Shown piece after piece: positions 50,928 to 59,516 of a stretch of DNA of 64,000 bases. The notes beneath the pieces are model-generated. The model was not told where the DNA came from and ran no database searches. It was given only the letters and a program-made list of their open reading frames with translations. The first letter of the stretch is position 1. Every line of letters begins with the position of its first letter. Origin of the DNA: Vulcanimicrobiota bacterium (GTDB lineage Bacteria; Vulcanimicrobiota; Vulcanimicrobiia; Vulcanimicrobiales; Vulcanimicrobiaceae); the NCBI GenBank assembly GCA_003168375.1, contig PMSI01000001.1:124001-188000 (forward strand), written 5' to 3'. The translations under genes were made by a program, and so were the position numbers.

Positions 50928-52718
50928 TCAAGGATTGCTGCCGATCCAGGCGGCGACACGCCGCTCCAGCACGTCGAGCGGAAGCGCCCCCTGCCCGAGC
51001 ACGACTTCGTGGAAGGACCGCAGGTCGAAGCGGACGCCGAGCCGTGACTCGGCGCGCGCGCGCAGCTCGCGGATCTTGAGCTGACCGATCTTGTACGCGA
51101 GCGCCTGGCCGGGATTCGTGATGTAGCGATCGACTTCGTTGGTGACGTCGAGCGGCGTCTTCGCGGCGTTCTCCAAGAAATAGTCGATCGCGCGCTGTCG
51201 CGACCAGCCTTGCACGTGCATCCCGGTGTCGACGACGAGCCGTACCGCACGCCACATCTCGTACGTCAGGGCGCCGAAGCGCGACTTCGGATCGTCGTAC
51301 AGACCCATCTCGGCGCCGAGCGATTCGGCGTACAAGCCCCAGCCCTCGACGAACGCAGTGTACGCAAGCGACGCGCGGCGGAACTCCGGGAGTCCGTGCA
51401 GCTCCTGCGCGAGCGCGATCTGCAAGTGGTGCCCCGGGACGGACTCGTGCAGCGAGAGCACCATCATCTCGTAGATCGGTCGCTGCTCGGGCTTGTAGAG
51501 GTTCACGTAGTAGGAGCCGGCGCGCGAGCCGTCGAGCGCACCGGGCCAGTAGTACGCGGTGGTGGTGTCGGGCGCGAGCGCCGCCGGGATCGGAACGACA
51601 CCGTACGGAAGCCGCGGCAGCGTCTTGAACACCGTGACGAGTTCGGGATCGATGCGCTTCGCGGTCGCGCGGTATGCCGCCAGCAGCTCCTGCGGCGTCT
51701 TGTAATAGTTCGCCGGGTCGTCGCGCAGTTGCACGATCACGTCGTGCAGCGAGCCGCGATACCCCGTCTGCGGCGCCAGATCTTCCATCGCCGAGCGCAC
51801 GCGCGCAACCTCACGCAGGCCGAGCTCGTGAATCGCCGCGGGCGTCATGTCGGTCGTCGTGTAGGTGCGGGCGAAGTACGCGTAGAGTTCGTCCCCGCCG
51901 GGGACGTGGACGAGCCCGACCGCCTCCGGCGCGGCCGGCAGGTAATGGTCGACGACGAACGCGCGCAGCTCGCGCAGCGCCGGGTTGACGGCGTTCGCGA
52001 CCGCCGTGCGCGCGCGCTCCCGCAAGCGCGCCGCGTCGGCGGCGGAGATCGACGCGGGGATCCGCGTCAGCGGCGCGTAGAACGCCGACGCCTCGGGATC
52101 GGCGATCAGCCGGTCGAGTTGCGCGGGGACTCGCTGCATCGACGGCCGCGGCCACAGCATCCGCCGCGCGAGCGCCTCGCGCAGCAGCGCGATCGACTCG
52201 GCGACGGCGCGCGGGTACGCATCGAGCCGCTGCAGCCAGTGCTCGTAGTCGGACACGTTCGCGAAGCGCAGCTGGTCGATGTACAGCGAGTAGGTCTGCA
52301 CGCCGTCGCGCGGGCTGATCGCGAAGAGCTGCGTGCCGAGCGCGTAGCCGCGCAGCGCGTCGCGCAGCTGCCCGGCGTAGAGGTCGTAGTTCAGCCGCGC
52401 GCCCTCGCCCAGCCGCTCGCGGCCGATCCGCTCCATCCGGGCCAGCACGTCGCGCTGGTGCGCGGCCTCATCGGCGAGCGCCGCCTCCGACTGCGCGTCC
52501 CAGCGGTCGTCGCCCGACCGGTCGCCGGCGAGCGAGGCCGCGATCGGGTGTCGGCGGTGGTAGTCGGCCCAGTCCGCGGCCAAGAGCGCGTCGAGTGCGG
52601 TGTCGGCGGCGTCGGCGGCGTCGGCGGCGGCCTCGGTCGGCGTAGCGACAGCTCCCTCGGTTAGCGCCAGGGTCCCGCACGCGATCGAGGCTCCGCGAAG
52701 CAGGTCGGCGCGGTTCAT
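50928..52718 (-). CDS. DUF885 family (exported metallopeptidase-like) protein
   Basis: About 596 residues. The zinc motif HESVPGHHLQIALAQEL, with a glutamate-rich FVEGWGLYAESLG downstream, and the end YKIGQLKIRELRARAE are the DUF885 signatures; relatives resemble thermolysin-like metallopeptidases. The start MNRADLLRGASIACGTLAL gives a signal-like N-terminus with Asn-Arg; ATG 52718 is preferred over the GTG/ATG further up (52757). An N-terminal linker is encoded by a 9-base tandem repeat. Confidence 0.85.
   Translation of the reverse strand: MNRADLLRGASIACGTLALTEGAVATPTEAAADAADAADTALDALLAADWADYHRRHPIAASLAGDRSGDDRWDAQSEAALADEAAHQRDVLARMERIGRERLGEGARLNYDLYAGQLRDALRGYALGTQLFAISPRDGVQTYSLYIDQLRFANVSDYEHWLQRLDAYPRAVAESIALLREALARRMLWPRPSMQRVPAQLDRLIADPEASAFYAPLTRIPASISAADAARLRERARTAVANAVNPALRELRAFVVDHYLPAAPEAVGLVHVPGGDELYAYFARTYTTTDMTPAAIHELGLREVARVRSAMEDLAPQTGYRGSLHDVIVQLRDDPANYYKTPQELLAAYRATAKRIDPELVTVFKTLPRLPYGVVPIPAALAPDTTTAYYWPGALDGSRAGSYYVNLYKPEQRPIYEMMVLSLHESVPGHHLQIALAQELHGLPEFRRASLAYTAFVEGWGLYAESLGAEMGLYDDPKSRFGALTYEMWRAVRLVVDTGMHVQGWSRQRAIDYFLENAAKTPLDVTNEVDRYITNPGQALAYKIGQLKIRELRARAESRLGVRFDLRSFHEVVLGQGALPLDVLERRVAAWIGSNP
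52602..52628. repeat. Three tandem 9-base repeats inside the DUF885 gene
   Basis: GTCGGCGGC repeated three times without change. On the minus strand it encodes Ala-Asp-Ala units just after the signal region, so copy number could vary without frameshift. Confidence 0.7.
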
Positions 52719-52798
52719 CGCCGCGGTCTTCCCGAGGGCCCATTCGCCGCCTGCCATGGCAGGTCGCGGCGGCAGGCCGGGGAGTATGATCGTATACG

Positions 52799-53599
52799 AT
52801 GCTCAAGGTCGTCGCCTCAGCCCTCGCCGCCGCCGCAGTCGCGATCTCCGCGGCCGGCGCGGTCGCGCAGCCGGCGCCGCAATCGACGGCCACCCCGTTC
52901 GCGATCGGAACGTTCCAGCCGCTCGGCAATCCTGATGCGCCGTTCGCGTCGCCGTTGCCCAACATCGGGCGCACGCGCGCGGTCAACCGGGCGTGCGCGG
53001 CGATGCGCGACTTGATCGTGCCCTCGTTCGAGGCGGCGCTGCGCGCGGACAAGCGGTTCGTGGAGACCCGCAGGAGCCTGCCGAACTACGCCGATATCGC
53101 CAACGACCCGATCCACCGCGACGACGGATTTCAGCAGATGCTGCTCTCGAAGCTCGACCGCGACGCCAGCGCCCTGCTGCAGGAGTCGCTCGTCCTCAAC
53201 AAGGCGCTGGGCGATCCGCGCATCGCCGCCAACGTCGACGATCCGCAGGTGATCGCCGAGCGGCGGGCGCTGCAGCTACTGTACGAAGCGCAGCAGACGC
53301 GCGCCAACCTGCTGAACGAGTTCGTGATGCGCGAACACGTCGCAACCGCAAAGCAAGGGATCGACGACGGCGGTGCCTTCCGCAGCAAGGCGTCGACCAA
53401 CTACTCCGGTGGCGTCTCGCCGCCGCCCGCTCCGAACCCGTCGCTGACCGCACCGCCCGGGATGCCCCTCCGCAGCATCAACCCGCTGGCCGACCGGAAC
53501 AGCTTGCAGGATTGGGGGACGGTCCTCTCCGCCTACGTCCGCACGAACGAGAACCAAGCCGCGAAGACGTTCTTCACCATCGCAAGAACCTGCAAATGA
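52799..53599 (+). CDS. Tandem paralogue 1, exported protein of unknown family
   Basis: 266 residues. Signal peptide MLKVVASALAAAAVAISAAGAVAQ, then a linker, and the family core RACAAMRDLIVPSFEAALRADKRFVETRRSLPNYAD. It is mostly helical, with a Pro-rich segment (about 205-225) and a terminal TFFTIARTCK. Conserved features with its two neighbours are the internal cysteine before AMRDL, NKALGDPR followed by ADSKDPDV-like NVDDPQVIAERRALQ, and the last cysteine. A disulfide between the two cysteines is likely. Not recognised as a known family. Confidence 0.75.
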   Translation: MLKVVASALAAAAVAISAAGAVAQPAPQSTATPFAIGTFQPLGNPDAPFASPLPNIGRTRAVNRACAAMRDLIVPSFEAALRADKRFVETRRSLPNYADIANDPIHRDDGFQQMLLSKLDRDASALLQESLVLNKALGDPRIAANVDDPQVIAERRALQLLYEAQQTRANLLNEFVMREHVATAKQGIDDGGAFRSKASTNYSGGVSPPPAPNPSLTAPPGMPLRSINPLADRNSLQDWGTVLSAYVRTNENQAAKTFFTIARTCK

Positions 53600-54348
53600 T
53601 CGCGGCGGGCGCGATCGCTGTAATGGTTTTGGCGCTGACGACCCCGGGCATGGGCGCGAGCTCGCCGGAGCCGGCGCCGTCGGACTTGCCCGAGATCGGC
53701 CATACGAAATCCACGACGCCCGCCTGCGCCGTGATGCGCGACTTGGTGATCCCGTCGTTCGCCGCGGCGAGGCGCGCCGATGCCCGCTTCGCGGTGACGC
53801 AAACACGGTTGCCGCGCTACGCCGAGGCACGCGCCGACGTGAAGAACGACCGCAACACCGCCGGCACGGATAACCAAATCGTGGAGGGGTTGCAGGAGTC
53901 GTTGCTCTCGCAAATCGATCAGGACGCTGCGAACATGCTCGGGTATGCGGCGTTCATCGGCAAGGCGCTCGGAGACCCGCGGCTCGCGGCGGACTCGAAG
54001 GACCCCGACGTGCAGGAAGAGCGCGCGCAGCTGCAGGCGCTCTACGCCGTTCAGCAGTCCCGTGCGGCGGCGCTGGCCGAGCTCGCGGCGCGCGATCGCG
54101 TGAAGCTGACGACCAGTCAGATGGGTGCGGCGAGGATCAAAGGGAAGATGGCCGAGGCGACGGTGAGCGACGCAGCCTCGCCCCAGCCGTTCGAGACCGC
54201 GGCACCCGCGATGCCCAACTTCAGCGGCAACTCGTTTGCCGACAAGCAGCGGATGAGCGCGTGGACGCGCGACATGGCCAAAGCGGTCGCCGACGCCGAA
54301 AACCGCGCCGCGAAGTCGTTCTTGCCGCTCGCGCAGCGGTGTCGCTGA
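53596..54348 (+). CDS. Tandem paralogue 2, exported protein of unknown family
   Basis: 250 residues, ATG overlapping the previous stop. Signal segment MIAAGAIAVMVLALTTPGMGAS, family core PACAVMRDLVIPSFAAARRADARF, then DNQIVEGLQESLLSQIDQDAANML, KALGDPRLAADSKDPDVQEERAQLQALYA, and SFLPLAQRCR at the end. About two-thirds identical to paralogue 3. The longer upstream frame is the shadow of paralogue 1. Confidence 0.78.
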   Translation: MIAAGAIAVMVLALTTPGMGASSPEPAPSDLPEIGHTKSTTPACAVMRDLVIPSFAAARRADARFAVTQTRLPRYAEARADVKNDRNTAGTDNQIVEGLQESLLSQIDQDAANMLGYAAFIGKALGDPRLAADSKDPDVQEERAQLQALYAVQQSRAAALAELAARDRVKLTTSQMGAARIKGKMAEATVSDAASPQPFETAAPAMPNFSGNSFADKQRMSAWTRDMAKAVADAENRAAKSFLPLAQRCR

Positions 54349-54349
54349 C

Positions 54350-55102
54350 GTGACGACCACCGGAACGATCGCGGTCCTCATGCTCGCGCTGGCCGGCGCC
54401 GGCTCGGTCACGCCGGCGCCGGATGCTACGCCGGCGGATTTGCCGGAGATCGGCCGCACGAAGGCCACGACGCCGGCATGCGCCGCGATGCGCGATTTGG
54501 TGATCCCGTCGTTCGAGGCCGCGAGGCGCGCCGACGCACGGTTCGTCGACGCGCAGAAACGCTTGCTGCGCTACGCCGAGGCCCGGGCAGACGTGAAGAA
54601 CGACCGCAATCAGACGGGCACCGACAACCAGATCCAGGAAGTGTCGCAGGAGGCGCGGCTCTCACAGCTCGATCAGGACGCCGCGAACCTGCTCGCACAT
54701 GCGGCGGTCATCAACAAGGCGCTCGGCGATCCGCGGTTGCCCGCGGACTCGAAGGACCCCGACGTGCGGGAAGAGCGCGCGCAGCTGCAGGCGCTCTATG
54801 CAGCGCAGCAGGCCCGTGCCTCGATGCTGGCCGAGCTCGGGTCGCGCGACCGGGTCACGCTGACGCAGAGGCAAATGGCCGAATTGGACATGACCGGGAA
54901 GAACGCGAAGGCGGCCGTCCACGAGGGGCCGCCGCCCCAGCCGTTCCGGACCCCGCCCCCGGGGATGCCCCTCCTCAGCCGCAACGGCTTCGCCGATAAG
55001 CAGAGCCTCGGCGTGTGGACGGGCACCATGGTGAAAACGGTCACCGACGCCGAAAACCGCGCCGCGAAATCGTTCTTGCCGATCGCCCAGCGCTGTGGCT
55101 GA
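54350..55102 (+). CDS. Tandem paralogue 3, exported protein of unknown family
   Basis: 250 residues, GTG start one base after paralogue 2. Hydrophobic TGTIAVLMLALAGAGSVTPA, core PACAAMRDLVIPSFEAARRADARFVDAQKRL, DNQIQEVSQEARLSQLDQDAANLL, KALGDPRLPADSKDPDVREERAQLQALYA and terminal SFLPIAQRCG. It ends convergently 3 bases from gcvPB. The three genes form one unit with stepwise divergence, paralogue 1 being most distant. Confidence 0.78.
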   Translation: MTTTGTIAVLMLALAGAGSVTPAPDATPADLPEIGRTKATTPACAAMRDLVIPSFEAARRADARFVDAQKRLLRYAEARADVKNDRNQTGTDNQIQEVSQEARLSQLDQDAANLLAHAAVINKALGDPRLPADSKDPDVREERAQLQALYAAQQARASMLAELGSRDRVTLTQRQMAELDMTGKNAKAAVHEGPPPQPFRTPPPGMPLLSRNGFADKQSLGVWTGTMVKTVTDAENRAAKSFLPIAQRCG

Positions 55103-55105
55103 CGG

Positions 55106-56611
55106 CTAGGTCGGCGGCCGCCAGCGCAGGTCGGGCTGGCGCGCGGCGCGCGTCTCGTCGATGCGGCCGACGGCCGTGTTCACCGGCGCGGCAAGGATCT
55201 GCTCGGGATCCGACTTGGCCGTCGCGACGATCTCGCGCAGGGCGGCGATGAACCCATCGAGCGTCTCCTTCGACTCGGTCTCGGTCGGCTCGATCATCAT
55301 GCACTCCGGCACGATCAGCGGGAAGTACACCGTCGGCGCGTGGTAGCCGCGGTCGAGCAGCGCCTTTGCGATGTCGAGCGCGCGCACGCCGGTCTCGCGT
55401 TTGAGCGACTGCGCGGAAGCGACGAACTCGTGCCGGTTGATCTCGTCGTACGGCACGTCGACGACGTCTCGGATCGAGGCGCGGATGTAGTTGGCGTTCA
55501 GCACGGCCAGTTGCGAGACGGTCGTCAGGCCGTCGGCGCCGTTCGCGTAGGTGTAGGCGAGCGCGCGAACCATGTGCGCGAAGTTCGACCAGAACGAGCG
55601 CATCGTGCCGATCGCCTGCGGTCGATCGAACTCGAGCGCGAACGTCAGATCGGTGCTGTCGCGCCAGCCGCTCGCGTCGACGGCGCTTCCGCCGGCGTCG
55701 AACGCACGCACGACCGGCGTCGGCAGGAACGGGACCAGGTGCGCGGCGACGCCGACCGGGCCGGCACCGGCACCGCCGCCGCCGTGCGGGATCGTGAACG
55801 TCTTGTGCAGGTTGAGGTGCATGAGGTCGAAGCCCATGTCGCCGGGGCGTGTGTTGCCCATCAGCGCGTTGGCGTTCGCGCCGTCGTAGTACATCAAGCC
55901 GCCGGCGTCGTGAACGATATCCGACACCTCGTGGATGCGCGGCTCGAACAAACCGAGCGTGTTGGGGTTGGTCATCATGCAGACCGCGGTGTCGGGCCCG
56001 GCGACCTTGCGCATCTCCTCGGGATCGACGCGGCCGTGCGCGTCGGACTTGAGCGAGAGCACCTTGAATCCGACCATCGCGGCCGAGGCGGGGTTCGTGC
56101 CGTGCGCGGTGTCGGGCACGATCACGACGTTGCGCTGCGGCTCCCCCTTGCGCTTGAAGTACGCCTTCGCGATCAGCAGCGCCGCCAGCTCGGCGTGCGC
56201 GCCGGCCGCCGGGTTCAGTGAGAACGCCGCCATCCCGAACAGCGAGCCCAGCGCGCGCTCGAGCTCCCACATGACCGCCAGCGCACCCTGCGCCGCGTGA
56301 TCGGGTGCGAACGGGTGTACGTCGCGCAGCGCCGGGAGGTTCGCCATCGCGTCGTTGATGCGCGGGTTGTACTTCATCGTGCACGACCCGAGCGGATAGA
56401 ACGCGGTGTCGATCCCGAACGTCTTTTGCGAGAGCCGGGTGAAATGCCGCACCACGTCGAGCTCGCTGTTGTCAGGCAGCGGCAGGTCATCGCGCAGCGC
56501 CTCGCGCGGAAGGAGCGTCTCGAGCGCAGGGCCCTCCGGCAAATAGCAATTCGCGCGGCCCTCCTGGCCGGTCTCGAAGATCAGCGGGGTATCAAACGCG
56601 GGCAGCGGCAC
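55106..56611 (-). CDS. gcvPB: Glycine decarboxylase P-protein subunit 2
   Basis: 501 residues, the PLP-carrying subunit of the two-gene P-protein. It shows FYPLGSCTMKYNPRIN, the cofactor lysine in HLNLHKTFTIPHGGGGAGAGPVG, and the C-terminal PTETESKETLDGFI. With GcvPA it decarboxylates glycine and loads the aminomethyl group on GcvH. It overlaps gcvPA by 20 bases. Confidence 0.95.
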   Translation of the reverse strand: MPLPAFDTPLIFETGQEGRANCYLPEGPALETLLPREALRDDLPLPDNSELDVVRHFTRLSQKTFGIDTAFYPLGSCTMKYNPRINDAMANLPALRDVHPFAPDHAAQGALAVMWELERALGSLFGMAAFSLNPAAGAHAELAALLIAKAYFKRKGEPQRNVVIVPDTAHGTNPASAAMVGFKVLSLKSDAHGRVDPEEMRKVAGPDTAVCMMTNPNTLGLFEPRIHEVSDIVHDAGGLMYYDGANANALMGNTRPGDMGFDLMHLNLHKTFTIPHGGGGAGAGPVGVAAHLVPFLPTPVVRAFDAGGSAVDASGWRDSTDLTFALEFDRPQAIGTMRSFWSNFAHMVRALAYTYANGADGLTTVSQLAVLNANYIRASIRDVVDVPYDEINRHEFVASAQSLKRETGVRALDIAKALLDRGYHAPTVYFPLIVPECMMIEPTETESKETLDGFIAALREIVATAKSDPEQILAAPVNTAVGRIDETRAARQPDLRWRPPT

Positions 56612-57956
56612 GAACCGGAATCTCCGAGAGGGCGGTGACGAGGCGGTCGACGTCGGCGCTCGAGGTGAGCTCCGTCGCCGTCATCAGGATGCAGTCGTCG
56701 AGTTCGGGATACCAGCGCCCGAGCGCGATCCCGCCGAGGATCTGCTTGCGTTCGAGTGCGGACAGCACGTCGGCCGCCCGGCCCGGAACGCGGATCGCGA
56801 CCTCGTTGAACGTCGGCGCGCCGAAGCGCACGGAGAAGCCGTCGAGCTTGGCGACCTTCGTCTTGAGCTCGTTCGTGCGTGCGACGTTCAGCGCCGCGCA
56901 GCCGCGCAAACCGGTCTTGCCGAGCGCCGCCAGGTAGACCGTCGCGCACAGCGCGCAGTGGGCCTGGTTGGTGCAGATGTTGGAGGTCGCTTTCTCACGC
57001 CGGATGTGCTGCTCGCGCGCCTGCAGCGTGAGCACGTACGCGGTCTTGCCGTTGACGTCGACCGTCCTGCCGACGAGCCGGCCGGGGATGCGGCGCAGAT
57101 GCTCGTTCGTCGCCGCGATGAACCCCACGTGCGGTCCGCCGTACGCGATCGCGTTGCCGAACGACTGCGCTTCGCCGGCGCAGATCTCGGCGCCCCACGT
57201 CGCGGGAGCGGCGAGCGCCGCGAGCGACATCGCTTCCGCGACGACCCCGATTACGACCGTCTTCGTCGATTTGACACGCTCCGCGACGCCGGCCGGCAGT
57301 GCGTCGATCGCACCGAAGAAGTTCGGCGACTGCACGACGACGGCGGCGTACCGCTGGTCGGCGAGCGCCGCGTCCAGCGCCCGGAGATCGGTACGGCCGT
57401 CGGCGCCGTACGGCAGCTCGTCGACCGTGAGCTCCAACCCTTCGGCGTACGTGCGAAGGACCGCACGGTAGTTCGGGTGGACGGCCTGCGAGACCAGGAC
57501 CGCTTTGCGGCCGGTCGCGTTGACCGCCATGATCGCGCCTTCGGCGAGCGCCGTCGCGCCGTCGTACACCGACGCGTTCGCGACGTCGAGCCCGGTGAGC
57601 AGCGCGATGTAGGTCTGCCACTCGTAGATCGCTTGCAGGTACCCCTGCGATACCTCGGCCTGGTAGGGCGTGTACGAGGTGAGGAACTCGCCGCGCATCG
57701 CGATCGCACCGACCACCGGCGGGATGTAATGCCGGTACGCTCCGGCTCCGAGGAACGAGGTATAGCCGCCGGCGGTGGTGCGTTCGGCGAAGCGGCCGAA
57801 GCGCTCCGCGATCTCGATCTCGCTCAGGCGCGGCGTGACCTCGACGGGGGCGCGCAACGCAACAGCATCGGGCACGCGGACGAGGTCGTCCAGCGTGTCG
57901 ACGCCGATCACGCGCAGCATCGCCTCGATGTCCTGAGCGGTATGCGGCGTGTACAC
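56592..57956 (-). CDS. gcvPA: Glycine decarboxylase P-protein subunit 1
   Basis: 454 residues, the non-PLP-lysine subunit. Visible are FLGAGAYRHYIPPVVGAIAMR, TSYTPYQAEVSQGYLQAIYEWQT, AYGGPHVGFIAA and NICTNQAHCALCATVYLAALG, all typical. GTG 57956 is the start, 4 bases after the gcvH stop. Confidence 0.95.
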   Translation of the reverse strand: MYTPHTAQDIEAMLRVIGVDTLDDLVRVPDAVALRAPVEVTPRLSEIEIAERFGRFAERTTAGGYTSFLGAGAYRHYIPPVVGAIAMRGEFLTSYTPYQAEVSQGYLQAIYEWQTYIALLTGLDVANASVYDGATALAEGAIMAVNATGRKAVLVSQAVHPNYRAVLRTYAEGLELTVDELPYGADGRTDLRALDAALADQRYAAVVVQSPNFFGAIDALPAGVAERVKSTKTVVIGVVAEAMSLAALAAPATWGAEICAGEAQSFGNAIAYGGPHVGFIAATNEHLRRIPGRLVGRTVDVNGKTAYVLTLQAREQHIRREKATSNICTNQAHCALCATVYLAALGKTGLRGCAALNVARTNELKTKVAKLDGFSVRFGAPTFNEVAIRVPGRAADVLSALERKQILGGIALGRWYPELDDCILMTATELTSSADVDRLVTALSEIPVRAAARV

Positions 57957-57960
57957 GGCC

Positions 57961-58362
57961 CTACGACTCGGCGATCAGTTGCTCGTACTGCTCGGGTGTC
58001 AGGAGGTTGGCGGTCTGGCTCATGTCGTTCAGCTTGACCTTGTAGAACCAGCCCTGGCCGTACGGGTCGCTGTTCACCGAGGCCGGATCGCTGTCGAGCT
58101 CTCCGTTCGTCCCGACGATCTCACCGCCGACCGGTGTGAAGATGTCGGAGACGGCTTTGACCGACTCGACGACGCCGATGCTGTCGAATTGGGTGATCGT
58201 CGCGCCCATCCGCGGCATCTCGACGTAGACGATGTCGCCGAGCGACGACTGCGCGTAGTCGGTGATCCCGACCGTCGCCACGTCACCGTCGAGTTTCACC
58301 CATTCGTGCTCTTTGCTGTAGAGCAGACCTGCCGGTACTCCGTTCGCCATCTCGGTCATCAT
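57961..58362 (-). CDS. gcvH: Glycine cleavage H protein (lipoyl carrier)
   Basis: 133 residues. Lipoyl domain with the modified lysine in VVESVKAVSDIFTPVGGEIV, preceded by EHEWVKLDGDVATVGITDYAQ and followed by NSDPYGQGWFYKVKL. Two adjacent ATGs (58362, 58359) and ATG 58350 are possible starts. The lipoyl cofactor would come from lipB/lipA in this window, and E3 from lpdA. Confidence 0.95.
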   Translation of the reverse strand: MMTEMANGVPAGLLYSKEHEWVKLDGDVATVGITDYAQSSLGDIVYVEMPRMGATITQFDSIGVVESVKAVSDIFTPVGGEIVGTNGELDSDPASVNSDPYGQGWFYKVKLNDMSQTANLLTPEQYEQLIAES

Positions 58363-58397
58363 GGTAGTGTCTCGGACGGCGCGAGTCCTCCGGGCTT

Positions 58398-59516
58398 CTA
58401 GGGCTTGGGGCGTTTGTAGAACGGCATCAGCACCACGGTGGCGCGGTGACGAACGCCGCGTACCTCGACCTCCAGGCTTGCTCCCTCGGCTGCCGCGGCC
58501 GGCTCGACCAATGCGGTCCCGATGTTCTTGTCGACCGAGGGCCCCCAGGATCCGCTGCGGATCTCCCCGGCGCGCGCACCGTTCGCGAACACCGGATAGC
58601 CGCTGCGGGCGGGGACGCGGCCCTCCATGACGAGGCCGGCGATGCGGGCGTAGTCGCCCGCGTCGCGCTGCGCGAGCAGCGCCTCCTTGCCGCGGAAAGC
58701 CGGCTTGTCGAATTTGATCGCCCACGCAAGTCCCGCCTGGAGCGGCGTGATCTCCTCGGTCATCTCGTGCCCGTACAGCGGCATCCCGGCTTCGAGCCGC
58801 AGCACGTCGCGCGCCCCCAGGCCGCACGGTTCGAGCCCGTGCCGGCGATTCTCCGCGAGCAGCAGGTCCCACACACCGGTCGCTTCGTCCGAAGGCAGGA
58901 ACAGCTCGAAACCGTCCTCGCCGGTGTAGCCGGTACGCGCGATGACGATCGGCTCGCGCGTCCCTTTGACGCGCGTCTCGGCGCACGCGTAGTATTTGAG
59001 CGCGGCGAGGTCGGCCTCGACGTACGGCTGCAGCCACTCGACCGAGCGCGGCCCCTGGATCGCGATCAGCGCGCGCTCGCCGTGCAGGTTCACCAACTCG
59101 ACGCCGCTCGCCGGCTCGGCGGTAACGACGTTCCACATCTTGTCGGCGTTGGACGCGTTCACGACCAGCAGCCAGCGGTTCTCGTCGAGCCGGTAGAAGA
59201 TCACGTCGTCGTGCGCGCCGCCGCGATCGTTGGTGAAGATGTTGTAGCGCGCCTGACCGGGCTTCATGTTCGCGACCTTGTTGACGGTCAGCGCTTCCGC
59301 CCACGTGCCGACGCCGGCGCCGGTCAGCACGAACTGGCCCATATGCGAGAGGTCGAACAATCCCGCCCGCTTGCGCACCGCCTCGTGCTCTTTGAGGATG
59401 CTCGTGTACTGCACGGGCATCTCGAACCCGCCGAACGGCACCATCCTCGCGCCGAGCGCTAGGTGGGCGTCGTGCAGGGCGGTGCGGCGAAGTGCGCCTG
59501 AAGCATCGGTCGTCAT
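58398..59516 (-). CDS. gcvT: Glycine cleavage T protein (aminomethyltransferase)
   Basis: 372 residues, folate-binding. It begins LHDAHLALGARMVPFGGFEMPVQY and has LFDLSHMGQFVLTG, GGAHDDVIFYRL, RTGYTGEDGFELF and AGMPLYGHEM. It heads the operon gcvT-gcvH-gcvPA-gcvPB; a 10-bp leader hairpin lies 15 bases before its ATG. Confidence 0.95.
   Translation of the reverse strand: MTTDASGALRRTALHDAHLALGARMVPFGGFEMPVQYTSILKEHEAVRKRAGLFDLSHMGQFVLTGAGVGTWAEALTVNKVANMKPGQARYNIFTNDRGGAHDDVIFYRLDENRWLLVVNASNADKMWNVVTAEPASGVELVNLHGERALIAIQGPRSVEWLQPYVEADLAALKYYACAETRVKGTREPIVIARTGYTGEDGFELFLPSDEATGVWDLLLAENRRHGLEPCGLGARDVLRLEAGMPLYGHEMTEEITPLQAGLAWAIKFDKPAFRGKEALLAQRDAGDYARIAGLVMEGRVPARSGYPVFANGARAGEIRSGSWGPSVDKNIGTALVEPAAAAEGASLEVEVRGVRHRATVVLMPFYKRPKP

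Follow-up and report, generated by a model that had tools for sequence, protein, structure and literature searches.

What three consecutive genes for small, apparently exported proteins of no recognised family do, and with what they work, is the question raised by this locus of a member of Candidatus Eremiobacterota, a phylum now named Vulcanimicrobiota. The window is the whole stretch of 64,000 nucleotides that was analysed, and a sequence-only reading of it had described the genes as exported-type paralogues without a known family or partner. Open reading frames and their translations defined the following unit.

52799..53599, + strand: gene 1, 266 aa, with a signal segment, a long proline-rich linker, a TonB-box-like motif and a predicted four-helix bundle
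53596..54348, + strand: gene 2, 250 aa, with a 4-bp ATGA overlap with gene 1
54350..55102, + strand: gene 3, 250 aa, with a GTG start 1 bp past the gene 2 stop

The three products are indeed paralogues, sharing 42 to 67% identity: genes 2 and 3 are 66 to 67% identical to each other, and gene 1 is 42 to 45% identical to either. Gene 2 groups with gene 3 in the tree, and gene 1 groups with one copy from genome G007, where a relative 63% identical to it was found. The dN/dS ratio was about 0.4 for gene 1 against its relative in the other species (G007) and about 0.43 for gene 2 against gene 3; the three are therefore maintained coding genes whose protein sequence is under constraint. As had been described, the core CAxMRDLxxPSFxAAxRADxRF was found in all three proteins. 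The second shared stretch, KALGDPRxxAD, is present in the products of genes 2 and 3, whereas that of gene 1 ends in AAN, and the stop-start overlaps held for genes 1 and 2 only: the gene 2 stop codon occupies 54346-54348 and the GTG of gene 3 begins at 54350, one base apart and without overlap. The C-terminal cysteine, which had been placed at the last position, is in fact penultimate (CK, CR, CG). All three proteins start with a hydrophobic segment, which in genes 2 and 3 carries no basic residue in its n-region; from these signal-like N-termini we infer Sec export.

The unit is flanked by a DUF885 gene (50928-52757, - strand) and by a glycine cleavage cluster running from gcvPB to gcvT (55106-59516, - strand). 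A perfect 12-bp palindrome, ATCGTATACGAT, at 52789-52800 overlaps the gene 1 start codon, where little space separates gene 1 from the divergent DUF885 gene, and is possibly an operator.

The family remained unrecognised upon wider comparison. Pfam, NCBIfam, PHROGs and PADLOC gave chance-level matches only, the best PDB match by sequence was to a designed coiled coil (E 0.1), and Foldseek with the gene 3 model returned nothing significant among solved or viral structures (best E 0.22); a clear match to a characterised family was thus found in none of the databases searched. AlphaFold2 (AF2) models were computed for the window proteins and for sequences of named relatives, which are Candidatus Eremiobacterota metagenome-assembled genomes, from alignments of only seven sequences. 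They predicted a four-helix bundle, its long helices mostly exceeding a pLDDT of 90, behind a disordered N-terminal stretch of 37 to 58 residues. The gene 3 model (mean pLDDT 77) has helices at residues 42-84, 91-125, 137-182 and 213-249; that of gene 1 has helices at 64-101, 111-137, 149-189 and 229-264, with residues 1-58 disordered. Against these models we placed the cysteines of each chain.

52994..52996, + strand: codon of gene 1 Cys66, invariant in the 23-member alignment, at the start of predicted helix 1
53591..53593, + strand: codon of gene 1 Cys265, invariant in the 23-member alignment, at the end of predicted helix 4
53725..53727, + strand: codon of gene 2 Cys44, located by the 23-member alignment
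54340..54342, + strand: codon of gene 2 Cys249, located by the 23-member alignment
54479..54481, + strand: codon of gene 3 Cys44, at the start of helix 1 (alignment and AF2)
55094..55096, + strand: codon of gene 3 Cys249, at the end of helix 4 (alignment and AF2)

Each chain contains exactly two cysteines, as had been noted, and these are the sole cysteines conserved across the wider family, in which 58 of the 70 deduplicated reading frames examined likewise have exactly two. Since the two ends meet in an up-down-up-down bundle, the cysteine that opens helix 1 and the one that ends helix 4 probably form a closing disulfide, a deduction from the helix order that agrees with the single bond previously suggested. 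The host genome encodes a DsbA-like thioredoxin, and no VKOR was found in it.

The main feature of these proteins had been overlooked. After the signal segment and proline-rich linker, the disordered tail carries a 10-residue LPEIGR[VT]-like motif, located in the three proteins as follows.

52955..52984, + strand: gene 1 motif LPNIGRTRAV, 13 residues before Cys66, the best site of the receptor-only model, at the end of the AF2-disordered tail
53686..53715, + strand: gene 2 motif LPEIGHTKST, score 18.6 with the receptor-trained model
54440..54469, + strand: gene 3 motif LPEIGRTKAT, score 14.3 with the receptor-trained model

Only three columns are invariant in the 23-member alignment, namely the two cysteines and the isoleucine of the motif, which shortly precedes the first of them. 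One of the host's TonB-dependent receptors was matched by the family profile too, at E 6.8e-7, in an N-terminal segment (SPLPEIGRVQTSDRRDEPL) immediately preceding the plug. Receptors were gathered with the Plug model (PF07715), and a motif was derived by expectation-maximisation from 45 receptor N-termini of the host's GTDB family, with the helical proteins unseen. The result was [LP][PR][ET]I[AG][RH]Vx[TS][SA]D, located where a TonB box is expected, just before the plug; several receptors of more distant members of the class have a canonical LDTVVVTAQR-type box at the same place. In several CarboxypepD_reg-like receptors (among L166-L182) the motif (LRTIASVRS) lies between that N-terminal domain and the plug, a placement that favours a TonB box over a signal of the mature N-terminus.

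Applied to 68 helical family proteins, the receptor model placed its best site 12 to 13 residues before the first cysteine in 67, so that a TonB box, as a sequence motif, stands near the mature N-terminus of these proteins. The median best score was 12.3, whereas shuffled sequences averaged -4.2 and had their 99.9th percentile at 11.8; the second-best site in the family proteins averaged -5.3. The motif isoleucine was present in 67 of 67 family proteins, which are kin and hence do not amount to 67 independent events; when the family was clustered at 35% identity, the motif occurred in each of the six clusters. As a control for specificity, 1.26 Mb of the host genome were scanned (1001 gene calls, 373 of them with a signal-like N-terminus by a crude home-made rule). 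A post-signal score of at least 10 was reached among the 373 by two receptors, gene 3 and one permease, whose match in a membrane helix is a coincidence; since gene 1 (6.5) and the host's C3 member (7.2) fall below it, the threshold is conservative and some members have a weaker motif. A scan of 1188 reading frames from many genomes agreed with this control. Two resemblances were set aside: LREVARVRSA in the neighbouring DUF885 protein was judged a chance match at an internal position, and LPEIG, although it resembles a sortase signal, was discounted on the grounds that the motif is N-terminal and its invariant residue is the isoleucine.

The family is confined to one lineage in the data at hand. 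A single-protein search recovered close relatives in the same genus only, whereas a profile built from 23 divergent members recovered family proteins in 93 of 149 genomes from the phylum. Every one of these genomes belongs to the host's GTDB family (about 99 genomes), and none is among the roughly 50 genomes of the phylum's other GTDB families. Being present in nearly every genome of the one and in none of the others, the protein family is no local oddity. Beyond the phylum, one pattern scan of contigs with close relatives covered the other phyla and matched Eremiobacterota alone, so distant members elsewhere may exist; tblastn against plasmids found no match. Several copies per genome are usual, and tandem arrays recur in other genera. 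Besides the tandem trio, the profile detects in the host genome two distant members that are clear and one that is weak, and it matches one receptor N-terminus. Within the genus, the unit lies between the DUF885 gene and gcvPB in several species, with similar flanks in G001, G007 and G008 and with one copy in G001 and in G008, two in G007 and three in the host. Around distant members the neighbours are quite different, and an enzyme partner from gene neighbours was therefore rejected. The earlier statement that no partner could be named thus holds for neighbouring enzymes, while the tail motif, being that of the lineage's own TonB-dependent receptors, points to the Ton system, of which the host genome encodes eight TonB_C proteins.

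How might a soluble bundle use such a motif? The function that we infer for the family is that of Sec-exported, soluble TonB clients whose tag would bind the C-terminal domain of TonB in the periplasm, a proposal to which we give even weight. Upon signal removal, the flexible proline-rich tail would present the TonB-box-like peptide ahead of the disulfide-closed bundle; the tag would then engage one of the cell's TonB proteins at its C-terminal domain, as this motif presumably does in receptors, and the bundle would thereby become a client of the proton-motive-force-driven Ton motor. TonB might release or pull the bundle while an outer-membrane partner holds it, for instance one of the lineage's Oar-type CarboxypepD_reg/Plug receptors, or else the family protein might compete with receptors for TonB. 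Each specific outcome, be it export, import or competition for TonB, commands less confidence than the client role itself, and docking to an Oar-type partner with its consequences is speculative. Several observations temper the proposal. The motif is short; in the family, T, I or L often takes the place of V at its seventh position; the Asp and Arg that follow the box in many receptors are missing; and the window proteins score 6.5 to 18.6, lower than most receptors. Furthermore, TonB has nothing to work against in a soluble protein that is not docked elsewhere. Family members do not, as a rule, adjoin receptors: a receptor was found within 5 kb at 5 of 50 family loci (12 genomes) against 2.2 expected (simulated p about 0.07), an adjacency that is suggestive only, since overall it does not significantly exceed the chance level.

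Comparison with the receptors themselves bears on how the motif should be read. Family and TonB-dependent receptors (Plug PF07715, including the Oar type with CarboxypepD_reg) occur in the same genomes and share a signal segment, a proline-rich linker and the same motif at the box position; the family differs in lacking a plug (no Pfam match) and a beta-barrel, AF2 predicting helices only, in a soluble four-helix bundle. This layout also suits an explanation in which the motif directs the sorting or processing of certain envelope proteins and is read by some chaperone or protease, and the bundles are structural or housekeeping proteins of the periplasm: the motif directly follows the signal and linker in receptors and family alike, and a TonB box has no obvious use on a soluble bundle. 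We regard this explanation as unlikely, because the CarboxypepD_reg receptors have the motif a long way from the mature N-terminus, after that domain and before the plug, and other exported proteins of the host genome are without it. Spy/CpxP (LTxxQ) periplasmic chaperones are small, exported and all-helical, as the family is predicted to be. Small all-helical exported proteins are common, and genes 2 and 3 do contain an LTxxQ-like stretch, so that one might picture ordinary periplasmic stress or metal-handling proteins in which the motif is a relic left when shuffling brought in the 5' end of a receptor gene. That origin appears quite improbable: the family has no Pfam match to those chaperones, the LTxxQ-like stretch is not common to its members, the predicted bundle bears a terminal cysteine pair and a TonB-box-like tail, and a relic would decay, whereas the motif isoleucine is the most conserved residue other than the cysteines.

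Bacteriocins, including pyocin S2, KlebC, KlebE and colicin M, offer examples of soluble proteins whose N-terminal TonB box precedes a folded, often helical domain (PMC12927319, PMC10906532). The disordered N-terminal tail with a box that marks this group is indicated in the family by the sequence motif together with the predicted low-pLDDT tail. A bundle might accordingly be released, bind a receptor on a sibling cell and be pulled in by the target's TonB, as are pyocins and klebicins; KlebC and KlebE show the same disordered TonB-box N-terminus, followed in KlebC by a helical domain (PMC12927319, PMC10906532), and the family is multicopy, tandemly duplicated and fairly fast-evolving. The chance of such a role seems slim, however, since the family has signal-like segments, whereas colicins usually lack signal peptides (PMC10906532), no cytotoxic domain was recognised with Pfam or NCBIfam, no separate or shared immunity gene was seen in the neighbourhoods, and near-universality in one lineage is unlike the patchy spread of bacteriocins. 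That a cell's own protein can undergo a TonB-dependent step at the outer membrane is known from Myxococcus xanthus, where the protease PopC is secreted through the receptor Oar (PMC6434023). Receptors of the lineage share with Oar the CarboxypepD_reg and Plug layout; the TonB box studied in that work is Oar's (PMC6434023), whereas the family proteins would carry the box themselves.

To return to the TonB-client proposal, the presence of the lineage's TonB-box motif makes these proteins more interesting than had been stated. In textbooks, the Ton system powers outer-membrane importers and is hijacked by bacteriocins. That a lineage-wide set of endogenous, soluble, Sec-exported proteins has its own TonB box, and that the Ton motor acts directly on periplasmic or secreted proteins, is put forward only tentatively; such proteins could form an energised protein export route or regulate TonB allocation. 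If true, the cell's own exported proteins would widen the range of Ton motor targets, and an orphan family, multicopy and from a phylum of which little has been cultured, would gain its first testable function. Vulcanimicrobium alpinum, which is in culture, has an outer membrane (PMC9758169). The receptor analysis moreover yields a likely TonB box for Vulcanimicrobiota receptors (L-x-E/T-I-A/G-R/H-V); it is unlike the textbook form and can aid receptor annotation there.

Some further observations concern individual loci. Receptors of the lineage (L163, L155, L149, L134 and others) display the non-textbook box as L-x-[ET]-I-[AG]-[RH]-V-x-[TS]-[SA]. In one genus (g25), family members adjoin Oar-type CarboxypepD_reg/Plug receptors (L102, L103, L105), with a member, a short gene and a receptor on one strand at L105, and toxin-antitoxin-like genes are interspersed at these loci. 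A more distant subfamily (L089, at G000:C4:505556-506023, L023 and L094) has the same tail motif and cysteine (LTEIGRVRALPAC, LKEIGRVRAVTAFC) on a different helical body.
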